Of a DNA stretch of 64,000 nucleotides, positions 17,455 through 27,737 are shown in pieces (position 1 is the stretch's first letter; the number at the start of each line of letters is the position of its first letter). The stretch covers positions 868,001 to 932,000 of the forward strand of contig NZ_CP049861.1 of assembly GCF_011299615.1 (NCBI RefSeq). The letters run 5' to 3'. Under the pieces are notes generated by a model. That model worked only from the letters and a program-made list of their open reading frames with translations. It made no database searches and was not told the DNA's origin. Source of the stretch: Erysipelothrix sp. HDW6C. GTDB taxonomy: Bacteria > Bacillota_I > Bacilli_A > Erysipelotrichales > Erysipelotrichaceae. Made by a program: the position numbers and the translations under genes.

Positions 17455-18378
17455 TTATTTTATACGTATATCACCGCTGGATGTTTCAAGGGAGATAATG
17501 TTTGGATTGGAAACACAATTATTATTTTTGAGTTCGATGCTTCCAGAATTTGTCTTTGTCTCAAAACAATAGACTGTTGCTGATTTAATCTCAAGTTCAA
17601 TGGAACCAGATGTCGTATTGAATGATGAGGAATCACTGAAGTTGAGCACGTCAACTTCAATATCGCCAGATGAAGCTTGAGCCTTAATGACGCCATCGAG
17701 ACTTTTAATTTTCGTTGAACCCGATGTCGTTGACGTGCTTCCAGAACCAAGAAGTGATTCAATCTCGATATCTCCAGAAGATGTTGATACGTTATATACA
17801 CCGATAATGCTGTCAATCTCAATACTTCCAGATGTTGAAGATGCCGCGATTGAGTCACCTTCCAATACCTTACCCTCAATGTCACCGGATGTGACATCCA
17901 AGAGAATCTTTTCGGCATTCAATCGATCAAATTTAAGCTGTCCTGATGTCAGTCTTGCTTGAATTGTTGCAAATTTACTGTCGGGTATCGTTACTTCAAT
18001 GTGATTAATTTGATGAGACATGAAATTAAAGTTGAAATTGAAATCTTCCGATGGTCCTTTAAGATCGAGTTTGCCGTTGGCCACGCTGATTGCGTAGGTT
18101 CCTGTGTCCATATTACTGATATGTTTTACAGTAATTATTTCAGAATTACCACCATTAATAAGTTCGAAGTCCATACTACCAGAACTAATCTCAATCGTGT
18201 TGACATCCTTAACAGGAATTGTATCTTCTTTGATAACAGATGCGGTATCACGAATTGGCGAATCACTGCCAAGATTAATTGGTTTGTTGATTCTGCGGAA
18301 TATGAGTGCGCTGATTGCAACAATTAATAGGGTTACAATCACAATCATTCCGAGTGTAAGTTGTTTTTGACGTTTCAT
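17455..18378 (-). CDS. DUF4097 beta-repeat surface protein
   Basis: 307 residues: a membrane helix (about 8-27), a short linker, then a beta-solenoid of the DUF4097 (putative adhesin) family. The repeated element [ST]SG[DS]IE recurs about ten times (TSGDIEG, TSGSIEI, SSGDIEI, SSGDIEV, TSGSIEL, NSGSIEL, SSGDIRI). Its ATG overlaps the stop of the upstream gene (ATGA) and has ribosome binding site GAGGAG. DUF4097 proteins commonly follow PadR plus a DUF1700-type permease-prefix protein, as here. It is probably a membrane-tethered, outward-facing sensor or scaffold for envelope stress. Confidence 0.85.
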   Translation of the reverse strand: MKRQKQLTLGMIVIVTLLIVAISALIFRRINKPINLGSDSPIRDTASVIKEDTIPVKDVNTIEISSGSMDFELINGGNSEIITVKHISNMDTGTYAISVANGKLDLKGPSEDFNFNFNFMSHQINHIEVTIPDSKFATIQARLTSGQLKFDRLNAEKILLDVTSGDIEGKVLEGDSIAASSTSGSIEIDSIIGVYNVSTSSGDIEIESLLGSGSTSTTSGSTKIKSLDGVIKAQASSGDIEVDVLNFSDSSSFNTTSGSIELEIKSATVYCFETKTNSGSIELKNNNCVSNPNIISLETSSGDIRIK

Positions 18379-19214
18379 GATTGCTCCTCTCTCAGTGTAA
18401 GTACCAATGTAACGATTTGAGACAGACCAGCAGCAACTACAAACGACAACCATCCATAACGATAATTACCCATCATAAAGAAACTGAGGACTGCGAGTGA
18501 CCAGATAACTGAGTTCGCAAAATTCTTAATCTGTTGGTTGCTCTCGCGAGTAGTCAATGTAATACCATTTTTCTCAAGTGTATTGAGGTGTTGGTAGTAA
18601 AGCAGTAGATCAGCAAGCTGTGTCACAAGATAGGCAACAATGAATAAGGTCCAACTCATTCGAATTCTATTCATCGATAGCACAAAGAACAGGAGTGTGG
18701 CGCCTATCCATATGATGGCATGGATTGAATCACGAATGCGCTTTGACTTTGGCGTTTCTGCAACACTTTTAGGTGTTGGTTGCTCTTCAGTTGGTTTTGA
18801 AATGGAAACCAATAACATAACTCCGATTGCGATCATCGTGAACATGATGGCGACTCCAAAAACGGCGTATTTTTCAGCAAACTCTCCGAAGAGAATGACA
18901 GGAATTACTGCGGTAATAAAGAGGAAAATTGCAGTACCTTTTTTCATATTATCAGACGTTTGTCCGTGGATATTAATTTCAACGGTTTGTTTGATGGTGT
19001 TCTCAGTTGAAGAAAGATGAATCAATTCGTCAACATCACCAATTCCAGATACAACCTTCTTGTAGGCAACGTCGGGGTCATTTCCTTCCGATAAAAGGTC
19101 ATGATATTTTTCATTCAAATTTATCGAGAGTTCCTCTTTGGTCTCAAGAAGCTGCTCATTCATTTGAATATCATCAAACAAACGATCGACATATGCTGCA
19201 ATTTTTTTATTCAT
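18375..19214 (-). CDS. Permease-prefix-domain (DUF1700-like) membrane protein
   Basis: 279 residues. An N-terminal helical domain (1-70) has the NEQLLETKEELSINLNEKYHDLLSEG pattern and the VVSGIGDVDELI end of the permease prefix domain found with PadR regulators. Six or so hydrophobic helices follow (about 90-275). The middle operon gene overlaps PadR by 8 nt and the DUF4097 gene by 4 nt. It is likely to work with the DUF4097 protein at the membrane; mechanism unknown. Confidence 0.8.
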   Translation of the reverse strand: MNKKIAAYVDRLFDDIQMNEQLLETKEELSINLNEKYHDLLSEGNDPDVAYKKVVSGIGDVDELIHLSSTENTIKQTVEINIHGQTSDNMKKGTAIFLFITAVIPVILFGEFAEKYAVFGVAIMFTMIAIGVMLLVSISKPTEEQPTPKSVAETPKSKRIRDSIHAIIWIGATLLFFVLSMNRIRMSWTLFIVAYLVTQLADLLLYYQHLNTLEKNGITLTTRESNQQIKNFANSVIWSLAVLSFFMMGNYRYGWLSFVVAAGLSQIVTLVLTLREEQS

Positions 19215-19551
19215 GTTCTTTACCTCCTATAGTAATCAGTGCGTTAATCATAACTTGGGCTGTATGCCAGTCTTCGATGTTGCGTTCGTACGTTCGTTTC
19301 CCATCAATCGTGATGGTGTAATAACGCCGACGTGCTCCTGAATCTTGGTCTCCCCAGTAGGAACTAATCATTCCTTGATCTTCCAAACGTCTAAAGGCAC
19401 TGTAAAGTGTTGCCTCCTTAAGTTCGTAGTCGCCATTCGTCGTTTCACGAACTGCTTTATTAATCTCATAGCCATAACTGTCTTTAATCATAAGTTGTGC
19501 TAGGATGATTGTTTCGGTATGTCCACGTATTAAATCCGATGTAATAGACAT
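19207..19551 (-). CDS. PadR family transcriptional regulator
   Basis: 114 residues, the compact PadR type. The winged helix is recognisable in ETIILAQLMIKDSYGYEINKAV and LKEATLYSAFRRLEDQGMISSYWGD, with the wing GARRRYYTITIDGKR. ATG 19551 is chosen because GGAGG lies 9 nt ahead; the longer frame would run through the promoter. It probably represses its own operon through the imperfect palindrome over its -35. Confidence 0.9.
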   Translation of the reverse strand: MSITSDLIRGHTETIILAQLMIKDSYGYEINKAVRETTNGDYELKEATLYSAFRRLEDQGMISSYWGDQDSGARRRYYTITIDGKRTYERNIEDWHTAQVMINALITIGGKEHE

Positions 19552-19579
19552 GCAATATACCTCCTGTGTTGATAATACT

Positions 19580-19608
19580 AATTTAACAGAAGATACTTCG
19601 CCTGTCAA
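19580..19608 (-). promoter_or_regulatory. Promoter of the PadR operon
   Basis: On the minus strand: TTGACA (19608-19603), 17-bp spacer, TAAATT (19585-19580), 29 nt before the PadR ATG. Confidence 0.75.
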
Positions 19609-19615
19609 GGTATCT
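19591..19615. promoter_or_regulatory. Candidate PadR operator
   Basis: Imperfect inverted repeat AGATACTT (19591-19598) / AAGGTATCT (19607-19615) centred on the -35 box of the PadR promoter, well placed for autorepression. Confidence 0.5.
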
Positions 19616-19737
19616 CGAAGAACATATGATTTGCACACAAATGATAAGATTGATGACATCAAAGCGTTATTTAAGAGCGAGTGACAATAACGGTCATGGG
19701 AACATGGTACGATGAAAAGAAAACAAAGGAGTATTTT

Positions 19738-21417
19738 ATGGACATTACATTTTGGTATGTCGTTGCTAGTATTATTCTCATTATAATTGTCTTACGTATT
19801 TTTGCTTACATTCAAAAGCAGCAGATTTTAAGGTTAATTCGTACAGAATATGGTGTTAATCGTACACAGATATATGATGGTCGAAGAATTGATCAAGTCG
19901 CACGTTACTATTATCAGTTGCGAAGTGATAGTGTGGATACACTTGATGATCAAACCTGGTTGGATTTACAAATGAATGAAATTTTTAGAACACTTGATTA
20001 CACCCAATCAAGTATCGGTTCGGAGTATCTTTACGCACAGTTACGCCAACAGAATAAAATAAATGCTAATCGTTTTGAAGAGCAAGTCACGTATTTTTCA
20101 AATCATCCAAATGAGCGGGAGGCACTACAATATGAATTTCGCATGATGAAAACAAAAGATGATAATAAATTTGTGGAACATATAGCTTCAGAGTCAGCAT
20201 TTGCTTCATTCCAAACAGGTGTTGTCAGTTTTATGGGAATCATGGGATTCTTTACGACGCTGTACTGCATCCTTTATCCAAGTAGCGCTCTCGAAGACGG
20301 GTTGGGAATAATTGCTATCGGTATCATTCTTATTGGACAGTTTATGATGAGTTCTGCGATTTATGAGCGAACAAAAGATACCTGGGATACCATGATCATG
20401 TTCTGTAAAGTTTTTAAGAAACTTAAAGTATTGGAGAAACTTGATCCTAATGTGTTTGAAGACGAACTTAAAGAAGTCGCACGTATAAAAAAAGCAATGA
20501 CATCGCATGCTTCATTTGTCGTTACGTATGTTGAGTTGACAATGGGGAGTTCCAGTGCGAATGCAATCTTCTATGTAATCGCAGCATTTTATGGACTTTA
20601 TGGGATTGCATTGCAACAAGCGAAGAAATTATTCATCAAAAATCGTGGCGATATCTTATCATTGTACGACCTTATTGGTCATCTTGAGACGTGTATTGCG
20701 GTTGCTTCTTATCGACAGTTCAAGGGCGAATATTGTACGCCAACGTTCCATGACTCAGCTTCAATTAATGCTGTATCCGTATACCATCCTTTGATAAAAA
20801 AACCTGTCAAGAATACGAAACATGTTGACCGATTGTCAATGGTGACGGGTGCAAATGCGAGTGGAAAAACGACATTTGCCCGCACACTCGCGGTCAACGT
20901 AGTTTTGTCACAGACAATCAATACCGCAATGGCAACCGCGTTCCAATTTAAGTTAGGCAATGTCTATTCGTCAATCACGATATCGGATGATTTATTGGGA
21001 GGGGACAGTTTCTATATGGCAGAGATTAAGCGCCTTAAAGAAATGGTGAGTTTATCTCAAGGGGGAACCTATACCATGTTCTTTATGGACGAAATGCTTA
21101 AGGGGACCAATGCAGTTGAACGGATTGCAGCTGCATCAACAATATTGGATACATTTGCTCAAGGTGATTGTTTCTTATTGCTAACCACACATGATATTGA
21201 GCTGACACAACTGCTTGGAAGTAAATACTCAAACTATCACTTCAAGGAAGTGACAACAGATCAAGAAATTACATATGATTACCGTATTTATGATGGCATC
21301 ACCACAGGAAGTAACGCAATCGCTCTACTTCGTGTGTGCAATTATGATGAAGATATCGTTGTGGAAGCACAAAAACGTGCGGACCACTACGGTGCTACAA
21401 ATACATGGATTGCTTGA
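19738..21417 (+). CDS. Membrane-anchored MutS-like ATPase
   Basis: 559 residues. One helix at the very N-terminus (about 5-22) and two near 160-205 anchor it in the membrane. A helical core like MutS domains III/IV follows. The C-terminal ATPase has Walker A GANASGKT (371-378), Walker B MFFMDEML (about 450-457) and a LLLTTHDIEL switch. It lacks the mismatch-recognition domain of MutS, so it is not classical MutS; such proteins form a Firmicute group of unknown function. It heads a tight operon with NTF2-like, AlkD-like, RNA repair and MBL genes. ATG 19738 has AAAGGA ahead; the upstream in-frame ATG has none. Confidence 0.82.
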   Translation: MDITFWYVVASIILIIIVLRIFAYIQKQQILRLIRTEYGVNRTQIYDGRRIDQVARYYYQLRSDSVDTLDDQTWLDLQMNEIFRTLDYTQSSIGSEYLYAQLRQQNKINANRFEEQVTYFSNHPNEREALQYEFRMMKTKDDNKFVEHIASESAFASFQTGVVSFMGIMGFFTTLYCILYPSSALEDGLGIIAIGIILIGQFMMSSAIYERTKDTWDTMIMFCKVFKKLKVLEKLDPNVFEDELKEVARIKKAMTSHASFVVTYVELTMGSSSANAIFYVIAAFYGLYGIALQQAKKLFIKNRGDILSLYDLIGHLETCIAVASYRQFKGEYCTPTFHDSASINAVSVYHPLIKKPVKNTKHVDRLSMVTGANASGKTTFARTLAVNVVLSQTINTAMATAFQFKLGNVYSSITISDDLLGGDSFYMAEIKRLKEMVSLSQGGTYTMFFMDEMLKGTNAVERIAAASTILDTFAQGDCFLLLTTHDIELTQLLGSKYSNYHFKEVTTDQEITYDYRIYDGITTGSNAIALLRVCNYDEDIVVEAQKRADHYGATNTWIA

Positions 21418-21444
21418 AATTTGAGATAGTAGGAGGAAATAGAA

Positions 21445-21822
21445 ATGAATGATTTTGATATTAATGGTTTTTGGAAGCACGTCGCACTGCAAGATCCGCA
21501 ACAGCTTAGTGCCTATTTCAATCCGGATGCTACGATTCTTTGGGAAGCTACCAATGAATCCTTTACAGTTGCATCGTATCTGCGCGCTAATTGTGAGTAT
21601 CCAGGGCGCTGGCAGGGGACGGTGATTGAGGTGAAGGCGTGCCCAGATACACTTATGTCGATAACTAAAATTGATGAATTAGAGATGAAATTGTCGTTCT
21701 ATGCAGTCTCATTCTTTACGATAAAAGACGGACTAATAACCCACTTACGTGAGTACTGGTGTGATATCACTGAGGCTCCGCAATGGCGCCAAAACTTGAG
21801 AATAGGGAAGGCAATTCGATGA
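21445..21822 (+). CDS. NTF2-like (SnoaL-type) protein
   Basis: 125 residues with the NTF2/SnoaL cone-fold pattern: a helix start, LSAYFNPDATILWE, a central beta sheet, and KDGLITHLREYWCDITEAP as the final strand. Such proteins bind small ligands or act as small enzymes; the function here is unknown. It lies 27 nt after the MutS-like gene with a good GGAGG ribosome binding site, and its TGA overlaps the ATG of the AlkD-like gene. Confidence 0.75.
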   Translation: MNDFDINGFWKHVALQDPQQLSAYFNPDATILWEATNESFTVASYLRANCEYPGRWQGTVIEVKACPDTLMSITKIDELEMKLSFYAVSFFTIKDGLITHLREYWCDITEAPQWRQNLRIGKAIR

Positions 21823-22535
21823 TTGATACAATTATTTCTGATTTGAAACGTGAAGCGAGTGAAAAACATCGTATGAACGTTATCAAGCTTGGTATTCCGG
21901 AGACAAACAGTTTGGGTGTCCCCACACCATTTATTCGTAAATATGCGAAAACACTAAAGAAAGATGATCGCTTGGCCAGATTGTTGTGGGATTCTGGGTA
22001 TCATGAAGCCCGGATCCTGAGTGTTTTAGTTTATGATGCGCTCACTGTAACGCACGATGATTTGGATAGAATGGTTGCTGACATCTACTCATGGGATTTA
22101 TGTGACCATTTTTGCAAAGAACTCGTGATTAAAACACCGTTTTATACATCATGTTTAAGTGCATGGATACAGGAGTCGAAAACGTATTCTGTGCGTGCAG
22201 CTTTTGTGATTATGTGTGCTGATATTGTCCACAATAACGACATCGAATATGAAACAATCGCAGATTATCTGGAACTCTGTCGTTCATACAGTGACAATGA
22301 CTCGCTATATGTAAAAAAATCGATTTCCTGGGTAATGCGAGAAATTGGAAAAATAGATCAAGAGTGGCAGGAGCGAGTCATACTCCAATGCCATGATTTA
22401 TTATCAAGTAATAACAGAGCCCAACTTTGGTTAGCCAAAGATGTATTGAAAGAAGTGGCGGATTTGGTCAAGGTGACGGGACGAAGACGATTGATATCAA
22501 AGCATTCAAAGATGGGGCAGCAAAGCAATCAATAA
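21819..22535 (+). CDS. DNA alkylation repair protein, AlkD-like
   Basis: 238 residues, all-helical HEAT-like repeat protein of the DNA alkylation repair family. LARLLWDSGYHEARILSVLV and WDLCDHFCKEL carry the Trp and Asp pattern conserved in AlkD, a glycosylase that removes bulky or cationic alkylated purines without base flipping. Start at 21819 is an ATGA overlap with the NTF2-like gene; the frame is open earlier within that gene. Next gene follows after 18 nt. Confidence 0.85.
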   Translation: MIDTIISDLKREASEKHRMNVIKLGIPETNSLGVPTPFIRKYAKTLKKDDRLARLLWDSGYHEARILSVLVYDALTVTHDDLDRMVADIYSWDLCDHFCKELVIKTPFYTSCLSAWIQESKTYSVRAAFVIMCADIVHNNDIEYETIADYLELCRSYSDNDSLYVKKSISWVMREIGKIDQEWQERVILQCHDLLSSNNRAQLWLAKDVLKEVADLVKVTGRRRLISKHSKMGQQSNQ

Positions 22536-22553
22536 AAAGAAACGAGGAATATT

Positions 22554-24896
22554 ATGAAAACACTGTTTGCAACGGTTGGTGTACCTGGAAGTGGAAAATC
22601 AACATATTTACATGATTTAGGGCTTTATGAACGCGGTTTTGTTTTAAGTACCGACGCAATCCGCAAACTTATCTCAGCGGAGACATACGAATGGAATGAC
22701 GAAAACGGTCTGCAACTCTATACCAATGAATCACGTCATAAGACAAGTGAGTTAACCTTCAAAATGGTAAATCAACTTATTGAAAGTCGTTCTGAGCGGG
22801 GGATGACCACGATCCTCGATAGCACGTTGTGCAATCGAAAGACAATTAATGGTTTGATTCAAATGACCAAAAAGTTACGGATTCGACTCGTACTCATCGA
22901 TTTTGATGTAGATTATGATACATGTGTTGCACAGAATATGCTGCGCGAGCACCCGGAGCGCGTACCACTCAATGTCATCGATCGCATGACAAATGCAAAG
23001 CAAGATGTACTCAAAATTGCACAAGACAAGAAGATTGAAATCATCAACTATCGCGATTTAGAGAATCGGTTTGCATCCAAGCCAACACTTGTGATTCCGG
23101 ATGAATCACGTTTGATTGCCATTGGTGATATTCATAATGACTACTTATCATTACAAGAAATCGTCGCCACATTCCGTGAATCGGATGCGGTGTTTTTCCT
23201 TGGAGATTATATTGACCGAGGACCGCAACCATTCGAGACGTTAGAACTTTTGGGAAGCTTACTTAATCGACCGAATACATGGTTCATACGGGGGAACCAT
23301 GATGAATCAATACGTCATATTGGTGAATACTTAAAAGATGGAAACTATCGTTTTAGTGACTTGGGTGATGCTACAAAAACTGGAGTACGCAAAACAGCCC
23401 AAGATACACTTGGAAAACTGATTGAACATTTCTATACACACCATATCCAAGCTGATGCAATTAAACAATTCGCAAGTACGATTCGTAGCTTTGAAAATCG
23501 CCTGCGCTCGTTTGCACATATTAAGTATCAAGATAAAGAATTCATACTCACACATTCAGGAATTGATAATGAAGTTGTATCCTGTGACAATTTGAATTTA
23601 GTGAATCTGGACAGTGTTACATTTGGATTGGGGTCCTATAAGTATGATATTGACCAAAAATATCGCGAAACACTTCCCCAAGCAATTCAAATCCATGGAC
23701 ATCAAAATAGTTATGATGGCAGTAATTATTGCCATTTCTCATCGTCGATAAACTTAAATCCTCTCAATGGAGAATCGGGCATTCGATGGTGTATTTTTGA
23801 TGGTGATACTTACATTGCAGATACCGTGTATGTTCATTTTGACATGCCGAAAACTGTCGATGTAGGTCTCTTTATTGCACGCTCAAAAGGGAATTCTGAT
23901 ATAAACATTAAGTGGGATATTGGAATGGATGATATCGCCTCATTTAATTTTTCACGTGATGTATTTTACAACTCGAACTGGTATCGGGATGTCATGCTTG
24001 CGCGTGGTCTTTTTATCAATGTTGTAACTGAAACGGTAGTAGCTCGCGGTTTTGACAAGTTTTTTAACTTTAATGAAAATAGTTTTTCGAGTGAGAGAAC
24101 CTTGGTTGATTCGCTATCGTATCCGCTGGTTGTCTCAAAAAAAGAAAATGGATACTTGGGTGTCCTTGGGTACGATGTGGCCAGTGATGCCCTTGTATTT
24201 GCATCAAAAACAACACTTAAATCAATGCATGCTGAACTTTTTGAAGCAATGCTTCGGTCTGTAATGATCGATGAACGCGGATTAAAAGACTTCCTTCACA
24301 ACAATACGATGTCATTGATGTTTGAAGTTGTAAACCCCGAAAAAGATCCCCATCCAATCTACCCGCGTGATTTGAAGAATCGCTTGATAATTCTTGGTGG
24401 GATTGAAAGGGCCTTACATGAAGATTTAGATTTCTCGCAACAACCAAATCTTGACGCGTACTTCGATTGGAACCAACAAGACGTTGCAATATCGTATGTT
24501 GAGTATGAAACAATTGAACGTGATGAACACCTTACAATTGGTGAACAAAATCGTGCGTTCTTAAGAACTTACAGTAGTAAAAATGATTCAATTGATTTTG
24601 AAGGTTTTGTAATCAGAGATGTGAATGGATTGATGTTTAAGTACAAGAGTGTATTTTATCAGTTATCGAAAATGACAGTCCGTAATTTTGAAGCAAACCA
24701 TTCCCTTGATTTCTTACGCAAAGGGCTTAAAAAGCGTGGTTTCTTCGAGGATGCGTTCTTGGAAGCGTATCTGGTCGATGTCGCATCTTATATCGAATGG
24801 GAGGGTCAAAAATGTTCGATTGATCGTCATGGATTACAGGAAACTGTGTACAAACATTACCGGAATGCAAAACCCTCACATGAATTTAGATATTAA
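22554..24896 (+). CDS. Three-domain RNA repair enzyme: 5' kinase, phosphatase and T4 Rnl1-like ligase
   Basis: 780 residues with three visible domains. First is a polynucleotide-kinase P-loop domain (1-165; GVPGSGKS at 9-16). Second is a calcineurin-type metallophosphoesterase (about 185-425; GDIHND 191-196, GDYIDRG 217-223, GNHD 247-250, THSG around 334, GHQ around 382). Third is an RNA ligase resembling T4 Rnl1 (about 475-780; ARGFDKFFNFNE, motif I KENG with Lys 530, motif III MFEVVNP, motif IV EGFVIRD, motif V FKYKS). This kinase-phosphatase-ligase order matches bacterial Pnkp, but the ligase looks Rnl1-like. Predicted role is resealing cleaved RNA, such as tRNA cut by anticodon nucleases. 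No Hen1 gene is nearby. Confidence 0.85.
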   Translation: MKTLFATVGVPGSGKSTYLHDLGLYERGFVLSTDAIRKLISAETYEWNDENGLQLYTNESRHKTSELTFKMVNQLIESRSERGMTTILDSTLCNRKTINGLIQMTKKLRIRLVLIDFDVDYDTCVAQNMLREHPERVPLNVIDRMTNAKQDVLKIAQDKKIEIINYRDLENRFASKPTLVIPDESRLIAIGDIHNDYLSLQEIVATFRESDAVFFLGDYIDRGPQPFETLELLGSLLNRPNTWFIRGNHDESIRHIGEYLKDGNYRFSDLGDATKTGVRKTAQDTLGKLIEHFYTHHIQADAIKQFASTIRSFENRLRSFAHIKYQDKEFILTHSGIDNEVVSCDNLNLVNLDSVTFGLGSYKYDIDQKYRETLPQAIQIHGHQNSYDGSNYCHFSSSINLNPLNGESGIRWCIFDGDTYIADTVYVHFDMPKTVDVGLFIARSKGNSDINIKWDIGMDDIASFNFSRDVFYNSNWYRDVMLARGLFINVVTETVVARGFDKFFNFNENSFSSERTLVDSLSYPLVVSKKENGYLGVLGYDVASDALVFASKTTLKSMHAELFEAMLRSVMIDERGLKDFLHNNTMSLMFEVVNPEKDPHPIYPRDLKNRLIILGGIERALHEDLDFSQQPNLDAYFDWNQQDVAISYVEYETIERDEHLTIGEQNRAFLRTYSSKNDSIDFEGFVIRDVNGLMFKYKSVFYQLSKMTVRNFEANHSLDFLRKGLKKRGFFEDAFLEAYLVDVASYIEWEGQKCSIDRHGLQETVYKHYRNAKPSHEFRY

Positions 24897-24908
24897 GGGA
24901 GAATCGTT

Positions 24909-25685
24909 ATGTATGATTGGTTTACAGTAACAACAATTAACGCAACGACCTTTGCAATCAGTGAGCTCCATCATTGGGAAAAAGTGCACTCGTTTCTTTT
25001 GATCGGAGAATCGAGAGCAGTCCTTATTGATTCAGGAATTGGTATTTACTCGATAAAAGAGGTAGTAGATGCACTGACATCACTTCCTGTGAGTGTAATT
25101 ACCACACATGTCCACAGTGATCATATTGGAAATCACCATGAGTTTGAAACAATTGCAGTGCATGAACTCGAGGTAGATTGGCTGGTCCATGGTATTCCTG
25201 GCATTACACTTGAATCCATTCGAGAGAATGTAATTCGTGATGTGCACTATCCCTTACCACGTGGATTCGACATTACGACATTCGATCTTTTTAAGGGTCA
25301 ACCCCAGTATGTGCTCAAAGACAATGAAATTATTGACCTTGGCAATCGTAAAATTAAGATTCTACATACACCCGGTCATTCTCCCGGTCATATTGCAATT
25401 CATGATTTACGAGATGGGTTGTTATTTACAGGTGATCTCTTGTATCTTGATACTCCAATTTATGCCTTTTATCCAAGTACAAATCCGCAAGATTTGGTCA
25501 CATCCTTAGCGCGAATTGCGAGTATTCCAGACATCACCATGATTTATGGTTCACATAATACTTTGGGGATTACGAGTGACGTCTTGAGTGAAGTTGAAAA
25601 GGCTGTGGTCTTTCTACGTGATAATGATTTGATTCACTTTGGTACGGGTCTGCATACATTCAAGACAATTTGTATTCAGTTTTAA
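24909..25685 (+). CDS. MBL-fold metallo-hydrolase
   Basis: 258 residues of the metallo-beta-lactamase fold. The metal motif HVHSDHIG is near residue 62, a later His sits in LHTPGHSPGHIAIHD, and FTGDLLY supplies the bridging Asp. It is a hydrolase of the glyoxalase II or RNase Z superfamily; substrate unknown. It closes the five-gene operon, 12 nt after the RNA repair gene, so action on an RNA or nucleotide product is conceivable but not shown. Confidence 0.85.
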   Translation: MYDWFTVTTINATTFAISELHHWEKVHSFLLIGESRAVLIDSGIGIYSIKEVVDALTSLPVSVITTHVHSDHIGNHHEFETIAVHELEVDWLVHGIPGITLESIRENVIRDVHYPLPRGFDITTFDLFKGQPQYVLKDNEIIDLGNRKIKILHTPGHSPGHIAIHDLRDGLLFTGDLLYLDTPIYAFYPSTNPQDLVTSLARIASIPDITMIYGSHNTLGITSDVLSEVEKAVVFLRDNDLIHFGTGLHTFKTICIQF

Positions 25686-26246: not shown

Positions 26247-27737
26247 ATGCTTAATATAACCGTCGGTGTTAAGTCACCACAGGGGCGCGAACTTGTCGCG
26301 CCTTTTTCTTTGTCTATAAATACAAAGGATAAGATTGCTGTAATTGGGGAAGAGGGGAACGGAAAAAGCCTGTTCTTTAAATCGCTAATACATGATTCAA
26401 GTTTAAATGATCTCGTTGTAGATCTCACATTGAGTCACACGAAAACAGTTTTTGGATATCTCTCACAAGATATTTCTAAGGAGTCACTCAATATCAGTGC
26501 GCTCGATTTCATGATCGAAGAGGATTGGGATCGCTATCAGTACCTCAATGAGAACCTTGAACGCATACTGCCACACTTAACGGATGCTGATTTAGACAGA
26601 CCAGTTTCGTCGTTTAGTGGTGGAGAACGGGTTAAACTACAGATAATTCGCTTGATGATGCAACGTGTTGATTGTTACGTGCTTGATGAACCAACAAACG
26701 ACTTGGACTTGCCAACAATTATATGGTTTGAAGACTGGTTACTTGCGCTTGATAAACCTGTGTTATTTATCTCGCATGACGTTCGTTTGATTTCGAATGT
26801 TGCCAATCGCATTGTCCATTTTGAACAAACACATCGCAAAACACGATCGCGTATTACAGTCTTTGAAGGCGACTATGCAACCTACGTAGCAACTCGCAAT
26901 TCGCATATTAATCAGCACAACCAAAATGTTGACAATCTTGCGAATCAGAAGGCAAAACAGATGGATCGATGGCGCCAACTCTACAGCAAAGTAGAGCACA
27001 AATTGTCCACAAATACCCGTCAGAATCCAGCGAAAGGTCGTCTTCTTAAGAAGAAAATGAAAGCTGTAAAGTCAATGGAAAAGCGATTTGATCGCGAGGT
27101 TATTGATGATAAAATTGATGTTGAGGACGCGATTTCATTACGTTTTGAACCCAATAAAGGGGTACATCGCAAACGTGTAAAAACGATCGATGTAGACAGC
27201 TTGGATATTGCAGGAAAGCATTTGGGAGATAATTATTTCCTTGATATCTACAGTACGGATAAAGTCGCAATTATTGGTAGAAATGGTATTGGAAAGAGTA
27301 CCCTCATCAATCGCGTATTTGCTGAACATGGTGCCATTATGTACCAGGATTACAGACGCAATCTAGATTATGATGCGAACCCAATTGATAATTGTGTACG
27401 CACTGGAGATCGCGAGGAACGAGGCCTGATAACCAATCACTTGGGAAGTCTTAAGTTTACAGAGACAGAAATGAATACGCCCATGCGTTACCTTTCAGGA
27501 GGGCAGAAAGCGAAAATATCACTTTTAAAACTTGTGTTACTCAAACCCGATGTTATCGTTTTGGATGAGCCATCACGAAATCTGAGCCCGTTGTCAGTAA
27601 GTGAAATTTACACCATGCTTCAGAATTATCAAGGTGCGATTGTTTGTATTACCCATGACCGTTCGCTTATTGATGCAGTTTTTAATCAAGTTCTAGAGTT
27701 TACAGAAGAAGGATTTAAAAAAATGCCAGTCGATTGA
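26247..27737 (+). CDS. ABC-F family ATPase (ribosome protection type)
   Basis: 496 residues with two ABC domains and no membrane helices. Domain 1 has GEEGNGKS, signature FSGGERVKLQI and VLDEPTNDLD. A basic, coiled linker (about 205-295, rich in Lys, Arg and Gln) follows. Domain 2 has GRNGIGKS, LSGGQKAKISLL and VLDEPSRNLSPLS, an altered Walker B/D-loop. ABC-F proteins bind the ribosomal E site and either dislodge antibiotics or aid translation. The leader-peptide attenuator argues for an inducible antibiotic-response role here (inference). Confidence 0.88.
   Translation: MLNITVGVKSPQGRELVAPFSLSINTKDKIAVIGEEGNGKSLFFKSLIHDSSLNDLVVDLTLSHTKTVFGYLSQDISKESLNISALDFMIEEDWDRYQYLNENLERILPHLTDADLDRPVSSFSGGERVKLQIIRLMMQRVDCYVLDEPTNDLDLPTIIWFEDWLLALDKPVLFISHDVRLISNVANRIVHFEQTHRKTRSRITVFEGDYATYVATRNSHINQHNQNVDNLANQKAKQMDRWRQLYSKVEHKLSTNTRQNPAKGRLLKKKMKAVKSMEKRFDREVIDDKIDVEDAISLRFEPNKGVHRKRVKTIDVDSLDIAGKHLGDNYFLDIYSTDKVAIIGRNGIGKSTLINRVFAEHGAIMYQDYRRNLDYDANPIDNCVRTGDREERGLITNHLGSLKFTETEMNTPMRYLSGGQKAKISLLKLVLLKPDVIVLDEPSRNLSPLSVSEIYTMLQNYQGAIVCITHDRSLIDAVFNQVLEFTEEGFKKMPVD

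Follow-up and report, generated by a model that had tools for sequence, protein, structure and literature searches.

A Predicted Single-Chain RNA Repair Enzyme of Erysipelothrix sp. HDW6C with Pnkp-Type Healing Domains and a Trl1-Like Ligase

Introduction

The healing domains of Pnkp are well established to repair RNA ends. In bacterial Pnkp, an insertion domain obstructs the ligase, which stays inactive until Hen1 binds (PMC4411300). The two ligases nearest to the one described here, Trl1 and T4 Rnl1, both seal tRNA (PMC6592678, PMC3400036), and tRNA-Lys cut by PrrC is repaired by T4 Pnk together with Rnl1 (PMC3400036, PMC2610378). In Chaetomium Trl1, the residues N150, H227, R334, and R337 bind a sulphate that presumably stands in for a phosphate of the substrate. 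Of these residues, H227 and R337 are essential. The same work describes the C-terminal subdomain as differing from others in the superfamily (PMC6592678).

The window analysed here is a stretch of 64,000 nt from Erysipelothrix sp. HDW6C (NZ_CP049861.1, positions 868,001-932,000), and all coordinates given below are relative to it. It encodes a kinase-phosphoesterase-RNA ligase protein of 780 aa (the HDW6C protein; 22554..24896, + strand) which, judging from its sequence and model, is a Pnkp-type healing module fused to a Trl1-type sealing module.

Results and Discussion

Three Catalytic Domains in One Chain

The ORF starts with ATG preceded by AAACGAGGAATATT, a good ribosome-binding sequence, and its 780 codons run intact to a TAA stop; the gene occurs as a single copy in the HDW6C genome. 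Three Pfam families match the product above their curated cut-offs: AAA_33 (aa 4-147, 2.2e-18), Metallophos (aa 186-338, 9.4e-14), and RNA_lig_T4_1 (PF09511; aa 483-698, 4.6e-26).

The AAA_33 region corresponds to a P-loop polynucleotide 5'-kinase domain (22563..22994, + strand, aa 4-147) with the P-loop GVPGSGKS (aa 9-16, 22578-22601), catalytic D34 and R37, and the lid residue R131. It is followed by a calcineurin-type metallophosphoesterase domain (23109..23813, + strand, aa 186 to ~420) carrying GDIH (aa 191-194, 23124-23135), GDYIDRG (aa 217-223, 23202-23222), and GNHD (aa 247-250, 23292-23303), together with the histidines H334 and H383. The adenylyltransferase subdomain of an ATP-dependent RNA ligase comes next (23856..24647, + strand, aa 435-698; PF09511), with ARGFDKFFNFNE at aa 497-508 and motif I KENG at aa 530-533 (24141-24152). 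Each of these motifs occurs once in the protein. Ligase motifs III (FEVV, aa 590-593, 24321-24332), IV (EGFVIRD, aa 683-689, 24600-24620), and V (KYKS, aa 696-699, 24639-24650), all on the + strand, were overlooked in the initial annotation, as were H334 and H383. The chain ends in a predicted helical C-terminal subdomain (24648..24893, + strand, aa 699-780), which resembles the Trl1 LIG-C region in the family but is strongly diverged in the HDW6C protein.

The motifs, the three Pfam domains, and the presence of 25/25 conserved catalytic positions bear out the earlier claim that three catalytic sites lie within one 780-residue chain, and the Pfam coordinates place kinase, phosphoesterase, and ligase in the order of bacterial Pnkp, as had also been stated. 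By its sequence, the HDW6C protein is real, intact, and catalytically complete.

Healing Domains of the Pnkp Type

Searches of PDB sequences with family profiles matched the kinase better to the CthPnkp kinase (4gp7, 7e-17) than to T4 Pnk (1e-11). The top match of the phosphoesterase was the CthPnkp phosphatase domain (4j6o, 1.9e-21), followed by PP1/PP2B-type phosphatases. In the AlphaFold model of the HDW6C protein (pLDDT 77.6), the kinase domain superimposes on the CthPnkp kinase 4jt2 with Z 19.2 and rmsd 2.2 over 157 aligned residues, and the phosphoesterase domain on the CthPnkp phosphatase with Z 16.8 and rmsd 3.6 over 209. These comparisons indicate that the kinase and phosphoesterase are Pnkp-type and closest to the Clostridium Pnkp domains.

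A Ligase of the Trl1 Clade

The ligase profile of the family matched Candida glabrata Trl1 (9qw7, 1.9e-33) and Chaetomium Trl1 (2.7e-25) ahead of T4 Rnl1 (2c5u, 2.9e-16). The Trl1 matches extend to the profile end, into the Trl1 C-terminal subdomain, whereas the T4 Rnl1 match ends before that subdomain. A tree built from 36 ligase domains places the family and two Trl1s opposite seven T4-type Rnl1s, with a branch support of 100/98. Family and Trl1 also share features that the T4-type enzymes do not have: ARGLF, KxNG in place of KxDG, the DPHII/EEHIL histidine, and a K..R helix after motif V. The ligase part of the full-length model gives Z 26.4 over 306 residues with Trl1 (6n0t) against Z 23.1 over 241 with T4 Rnl1. 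Modelled alone, the HDW6C ligase yields 21.7 for Trl1 and 20.1 for T4 Rnl1, and Foldseek puts both level; since the lone-domain structure is nearly level, it is the family profile and the tree that carry the Trl1 placement of this divergent ligase. The paper of Banerjee and colleagues on Trl1 reportedly defines an 'Rnl6' clade.

The initial annotation had called the ligase T4 Rnl1-like. The shared Pfam family PF09511 upholds part of that description, but the profile values and the supported branch bring the ligase nearer to Trl1. On sequence grounds, we place the HDW6C ligase nearer to Trl1, the tRNA ligase of fungi, than to T4 Rnl1, and regard 'Trl1-clade' as the better label; because PF09511 covers both groups, this refines the earlier description and does not overturn it.

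A Pnkp-type adenylyltransferase as the third domain was considered and rejected, as the ligase profile matches just Trl1 and T4 Rnl1 chains at E values up to 0.01. The HMM comparison that had been suggested as a check came out the same way, with PF09511 matched at 4.6e-26 and the PNKP-ligase Pfam family unmatched at E up to 1. The whole-protein model of bacterial Pnkp (TIGR04075, bacter_Pnkp) scored 60.8 bits against a cut-off of 750, its best stretch covering aa 4-150 only, and the T4 Rnl1 model (TIGR02308) scored 28 bits, below its cut-off of 242.25. The CthPnkp ligase was absent among the structural matches listed, which does not prove a different fold.

The family residues N532, H600, K706, and R709 align with the sulphate-holding residues N150, H227, R334, and R337 of Trl1. 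The HDW6C protein itself has no equivalent of the essential R337: it carries V709, with R at the next position, where 98% of its relatives have R.

A Mobile Family and Its Chromosomal Members

Residues 1-708 of the HDW6C protein align to positions 1-676 of 737 in the profile of PHROG 8238, annotated 'RNA ligase' (385.7 bits, E 7.6e-115). A tblastn search found 470 phage records, 99 of them covering at least 80% of the query, with top identities near 28%; the best identities were to Twort, SPbeta-like, and Staphylococcus epidermidis phages, and further matches fell in plasmid or mislabelled chromosomal records. IMG/VR added 79 loci, mostly full length. All three Pfam families are present in 45/45 aligned full-length relatives, so the three-domain combination is not a chance one. 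The architecture is therefore not new: it is that of an existing, widespread phage protein family found also on plasmids and scattered chromosomes, and the fusion may have been described in print before. Annotations within the family vary between RNA ligase, polynucleotide kinase, and phosphatase. The Kayvirus virion contains a protein annotated as RNA ligase (PMC7077315), which may belong to the same family. No enzymatic assay of the PHROG 8238 family was found in the open literature searched.

Two plasmid records deserve mention in their own right. On the Bifidobacterium longum plasmid NZ_CP084013.1 (L257:987-3493), the enzyme is split into a separate metallophosphoesterase gene and a following kinase-ligase ORF. 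The Fusobacterium record NZ_CP084075.1, drawn from the plasmid collection and titled plasmid, has a chromosome-like size of 2.1 Mb.

Chromosomal copies are sparse. The gene is missing from 12/12 other genomes of the same genus that were searched; two other members of the bacterial family carry it (272 genomes searched, HDW6C included), and in a sample of the class the full chain appears in three others of 296. Several copies sit alone among housekeeping genes, as in Veillonella parvula (between polA and an adenine deaminase gene), a Bacilli MAG (near recG), and a member of the bacterial family (adjoining purH), and one (L264) lies close to a gene with tail-protein matches. We infer repeated chromosomal capture from a mobile pool; the HDW6C lineage probably acquired its gene from this mobile, mainly phage-borne family.

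Divergence of the HDW6C Copy

The HDW6C copy is at most about 30% identical to other family members, and single-protein scans of genome contigs and viral contigs returned no near relative. Its terminal branch measures 2.36 changes per column, and its placement inside the family is unsure. By sequence, it appears to be a new, very divergent chromosomal member of a recognised, apparently uncharacterised family.

Such divergence could mark a phage-derived relic that is drifting to loss, with ligation or RNA binding already gone. The long branch agrees with this explanation, as do two substitutions specific to the HDW6C protein, R384Q (R384 is invariant in 44 relatives) and R709V, and the C-terminal subdomain (aa 699-780), which is only 11% identical to relatives; the absence of the gene from the rest of the genus sampled points in the same direction. 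We nevertheless consider a relic unlikely. The reading frame is stop-free over 780 codons, and its G+C is similar to that of the surroundings, so the gene is not a very recent arrival. Moreover, the losses are not evenly spread: the HDW6C protein keeps 66 of the 87 positions conserved in at least 90% of the 44 relatives, and whereas none of the 25 catalytic positions in this set has changed, 21 of the other 62 have. The hypergeometric probability of such a split is 0.00024, and catalysis therefore appears to be under selection.

R384Q and R709V fall at possible substrate contacts. The family profile aligns through the C-terminal end of Trl1, in a region where the HDW6C model has low confidence (mostly pLDDT 34-65). 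Together with the poorly modelled C-terminal subdomain, these two substitutions could lower or alter the activity.

Proposed Mechanism and Role

We consider it quite likely, from the sequence, that the HDW6C protein is a self-contained RNA heal-and-seal enzyme. All of its enzymatic activities, tRNA as the substrate, and its biological role are inferred as follows. The phosphoesterase would open a 2',3'-cyclic phosphate and then remove the remaining phosphate, while the kinase would phosphorylate the 5'-OH; healing of the Pnkp type should leave a 5'-PO4 end and a 3'-OH end that also bears a 2'-OH. Once adenylylated on K530, the ligase would pass AMP on to the newly made 5' phosphate and join the latter to the 3'-OH. 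The substrate would most likely be tRNA or some other RNA that a metal-independent ribonuclease, such as a toxin or a phage-defence nuclease, has cleaved. The initial annotation had noted that Hen1 is absent, and the Hen1 model TIGR04074 is indeed unmatched in the HDW6C genome. Hen1 independence is reasonable for this ligase, as it is the Pnkp ligase that needs Hen1 (PMC4411300) and the HDW6C ligase belongs to another clade.

An alternative pathway would follow fungal tRNA splicing: the phosphoesterase would leave a 2'-phosphate, the ligase would require it, and the junction would retain it. The CthPnkp mutant H189D, which converts cyclic phosphates to the 2'-phosphate only, counts in favour of this course. 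So does the presence in the family of residues aligned to the sulphate-holding N150, H227, R334, and R337 of Trl1, which T4-type Rnl1 enzymes do not have (PMC6592678). The conserved residues make the idea attractive, but it is poorly supported and, in our judgement, very unlikely. The healing domains are Pnkp-type and not Trl1-type, and the HDW6C protein has V709. KptA/Tpt1, the 2'-phosphotransferase needed for completion, was not found in the HDW6C genome and was present in 3/53 carrier genomes or records; as many of these are fragments, its absence from them carries little weight.

Phage homologues of the PHROG 8238 family plausibly repair tRNA similarly to T4 Pnk and Rnl1. Our best guess is that the chromosomal copy counters tRNA-cutting toxins or defence nucleases. 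PF13166 (PrrC/RloC), the only anticodon nuclease family covered by the search, had no match in the HDW6C genome, and no nuclease gene adjoins the repair gene. As an anecdote only, one genome of the same genus without the repair gene encodes a full-length RloC/PrrC-type AAA_13 protein (L245, G010:C1:498786-500957; E 8.3e-51).

Genomic Setting

The repair gene lies in a run of co-directional, tightly spaced genes (19681-25685). Upstream, across an 18-base gap, is a gene for an AlkD-like DNA alkylation repair protein (21783..22535, + strand; PF08713, 7.2e-26), which, given this spacing, is probably co-transcribed with it; downstream, across 12 bases, a metallo-beta-lactamase-fold hydrolase is encoded (24909..25685, + strand; PF00753, 1.3e-15). 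The first gene of the run (19681-21417) specifies a MutS domain V ATPase of 578 aa that matches MutS and KamC models under their cut-offs and has a paralogue at another locus of the genome (32% identity). Beyond the run lie an ABC-F protein (26247-27737), nearest to ribosomal-protection-like ABC-F proteins at a score below the curated cut-off and possibly an antibiotic or translation factor, and, on the - strand (17455-19662), a tight divergent operon of a PadR regulator, a permease-prefix membrane protein, and a LiaG-like toastrack protein.

A prophage setting was rejected, as the flanks consist of metabolic, transport, and regulatory genes and the sole phage-like signal is the repair gene itself. 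PADLOC assigned no defence gene to the HDW6C protein or its three neighbours, apart from weak ATPase matches, and promoter and terminator scans came close to the shuffled expectation. When synteny was compared with the genus genomes, an orthologue was seen for the downstream lactamase alone, beside different neighbours. The tight spacing and the AlkD-like and MutS domain V neighbours might suggest a nucleic acid repair operon acting on DNA or RNA-DNA breaks and not on tRNA, but this is highly improbable, given that other chromosomal carriers share no neighbourhood with the HDW6C locus, that the AlkD-like and lactamase neighbours are patchy across the genus, and that the ligase clade seals RNA.

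Significance and Comparison with Known Systems

An RNA repair enzyme that consists of one chain and needs no Hen1 would offer a simple way to find out which phages and bacteria undo tRNA-cutting defences, and would also serve laboratory RNA end repair. Its Trl1-like ligase would connect prokaryotic repair with fungal tRNA splicing, making the origin of that ligase and its end-phosphate requirement testable outside eukaryotes. One may speculate, at rather long odds, that the phage and bacterial combination of a Trl1-clade tRNA ligase with Pnkp healing employs a terminal phosphate at the 3' end as fungi do, or did so in the past, that the fungal ligase domain descends from the phage-borne pool, and that the HDW6C copy is a diverged descendant whose RNA specificity has changed.

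Among known systems, the PHROG 8238 phage proteins (Staphylococcus phage Twort ORF008, YP_238673.1; Bacillus phage SPbetaL8, WIT28247.1) are the most alike, agreeing in the three domains and their order over nearly the full length and in all catalytic residues; the HDW6C copy differs in being chromosomal and in its R384Q, R709V, and divergent C-terminal end. Bacterial Pnkp (Clostridium thermocellum; TIGR04075), which has Hen1 as its partner, shares the domain order and provides the closest solved kinase and phosphoesterase structures, whereas the HDW6C ligase is of another clade, with no Pnkp ligase match, in a genome with no detected Hen1. The LIG domain of fungal Trl1 is closest by family profile, tree, and structure, with ARGLF, KxNG, H600, and probably a helical C-terminal subdomain in common, but Trl1 has the order ligase-kinase-CPD with a 2H phosphodiesterase, against kinase-metallophosphoesterase-ligase here. 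T4 Rnl1 with T4 Pnk performs the same overall chemistry on two proteins and shares the ligase family PF09511; it differs in its separate chains, HAD-type phosphatase, KxDG motif I, and unrelated C-terminal domain, and T4-type ligases lie across the 100/98 branch from those of the HDW6C family. Finally, Capnocytophaga gingivalis Pnkp1-Rnl-Hen1 is likewise a bacterial heal-and-seal repair system, but one built of three proteins, with a HAD-type phosphatase and dependence on Hen1 (PMC4411300).
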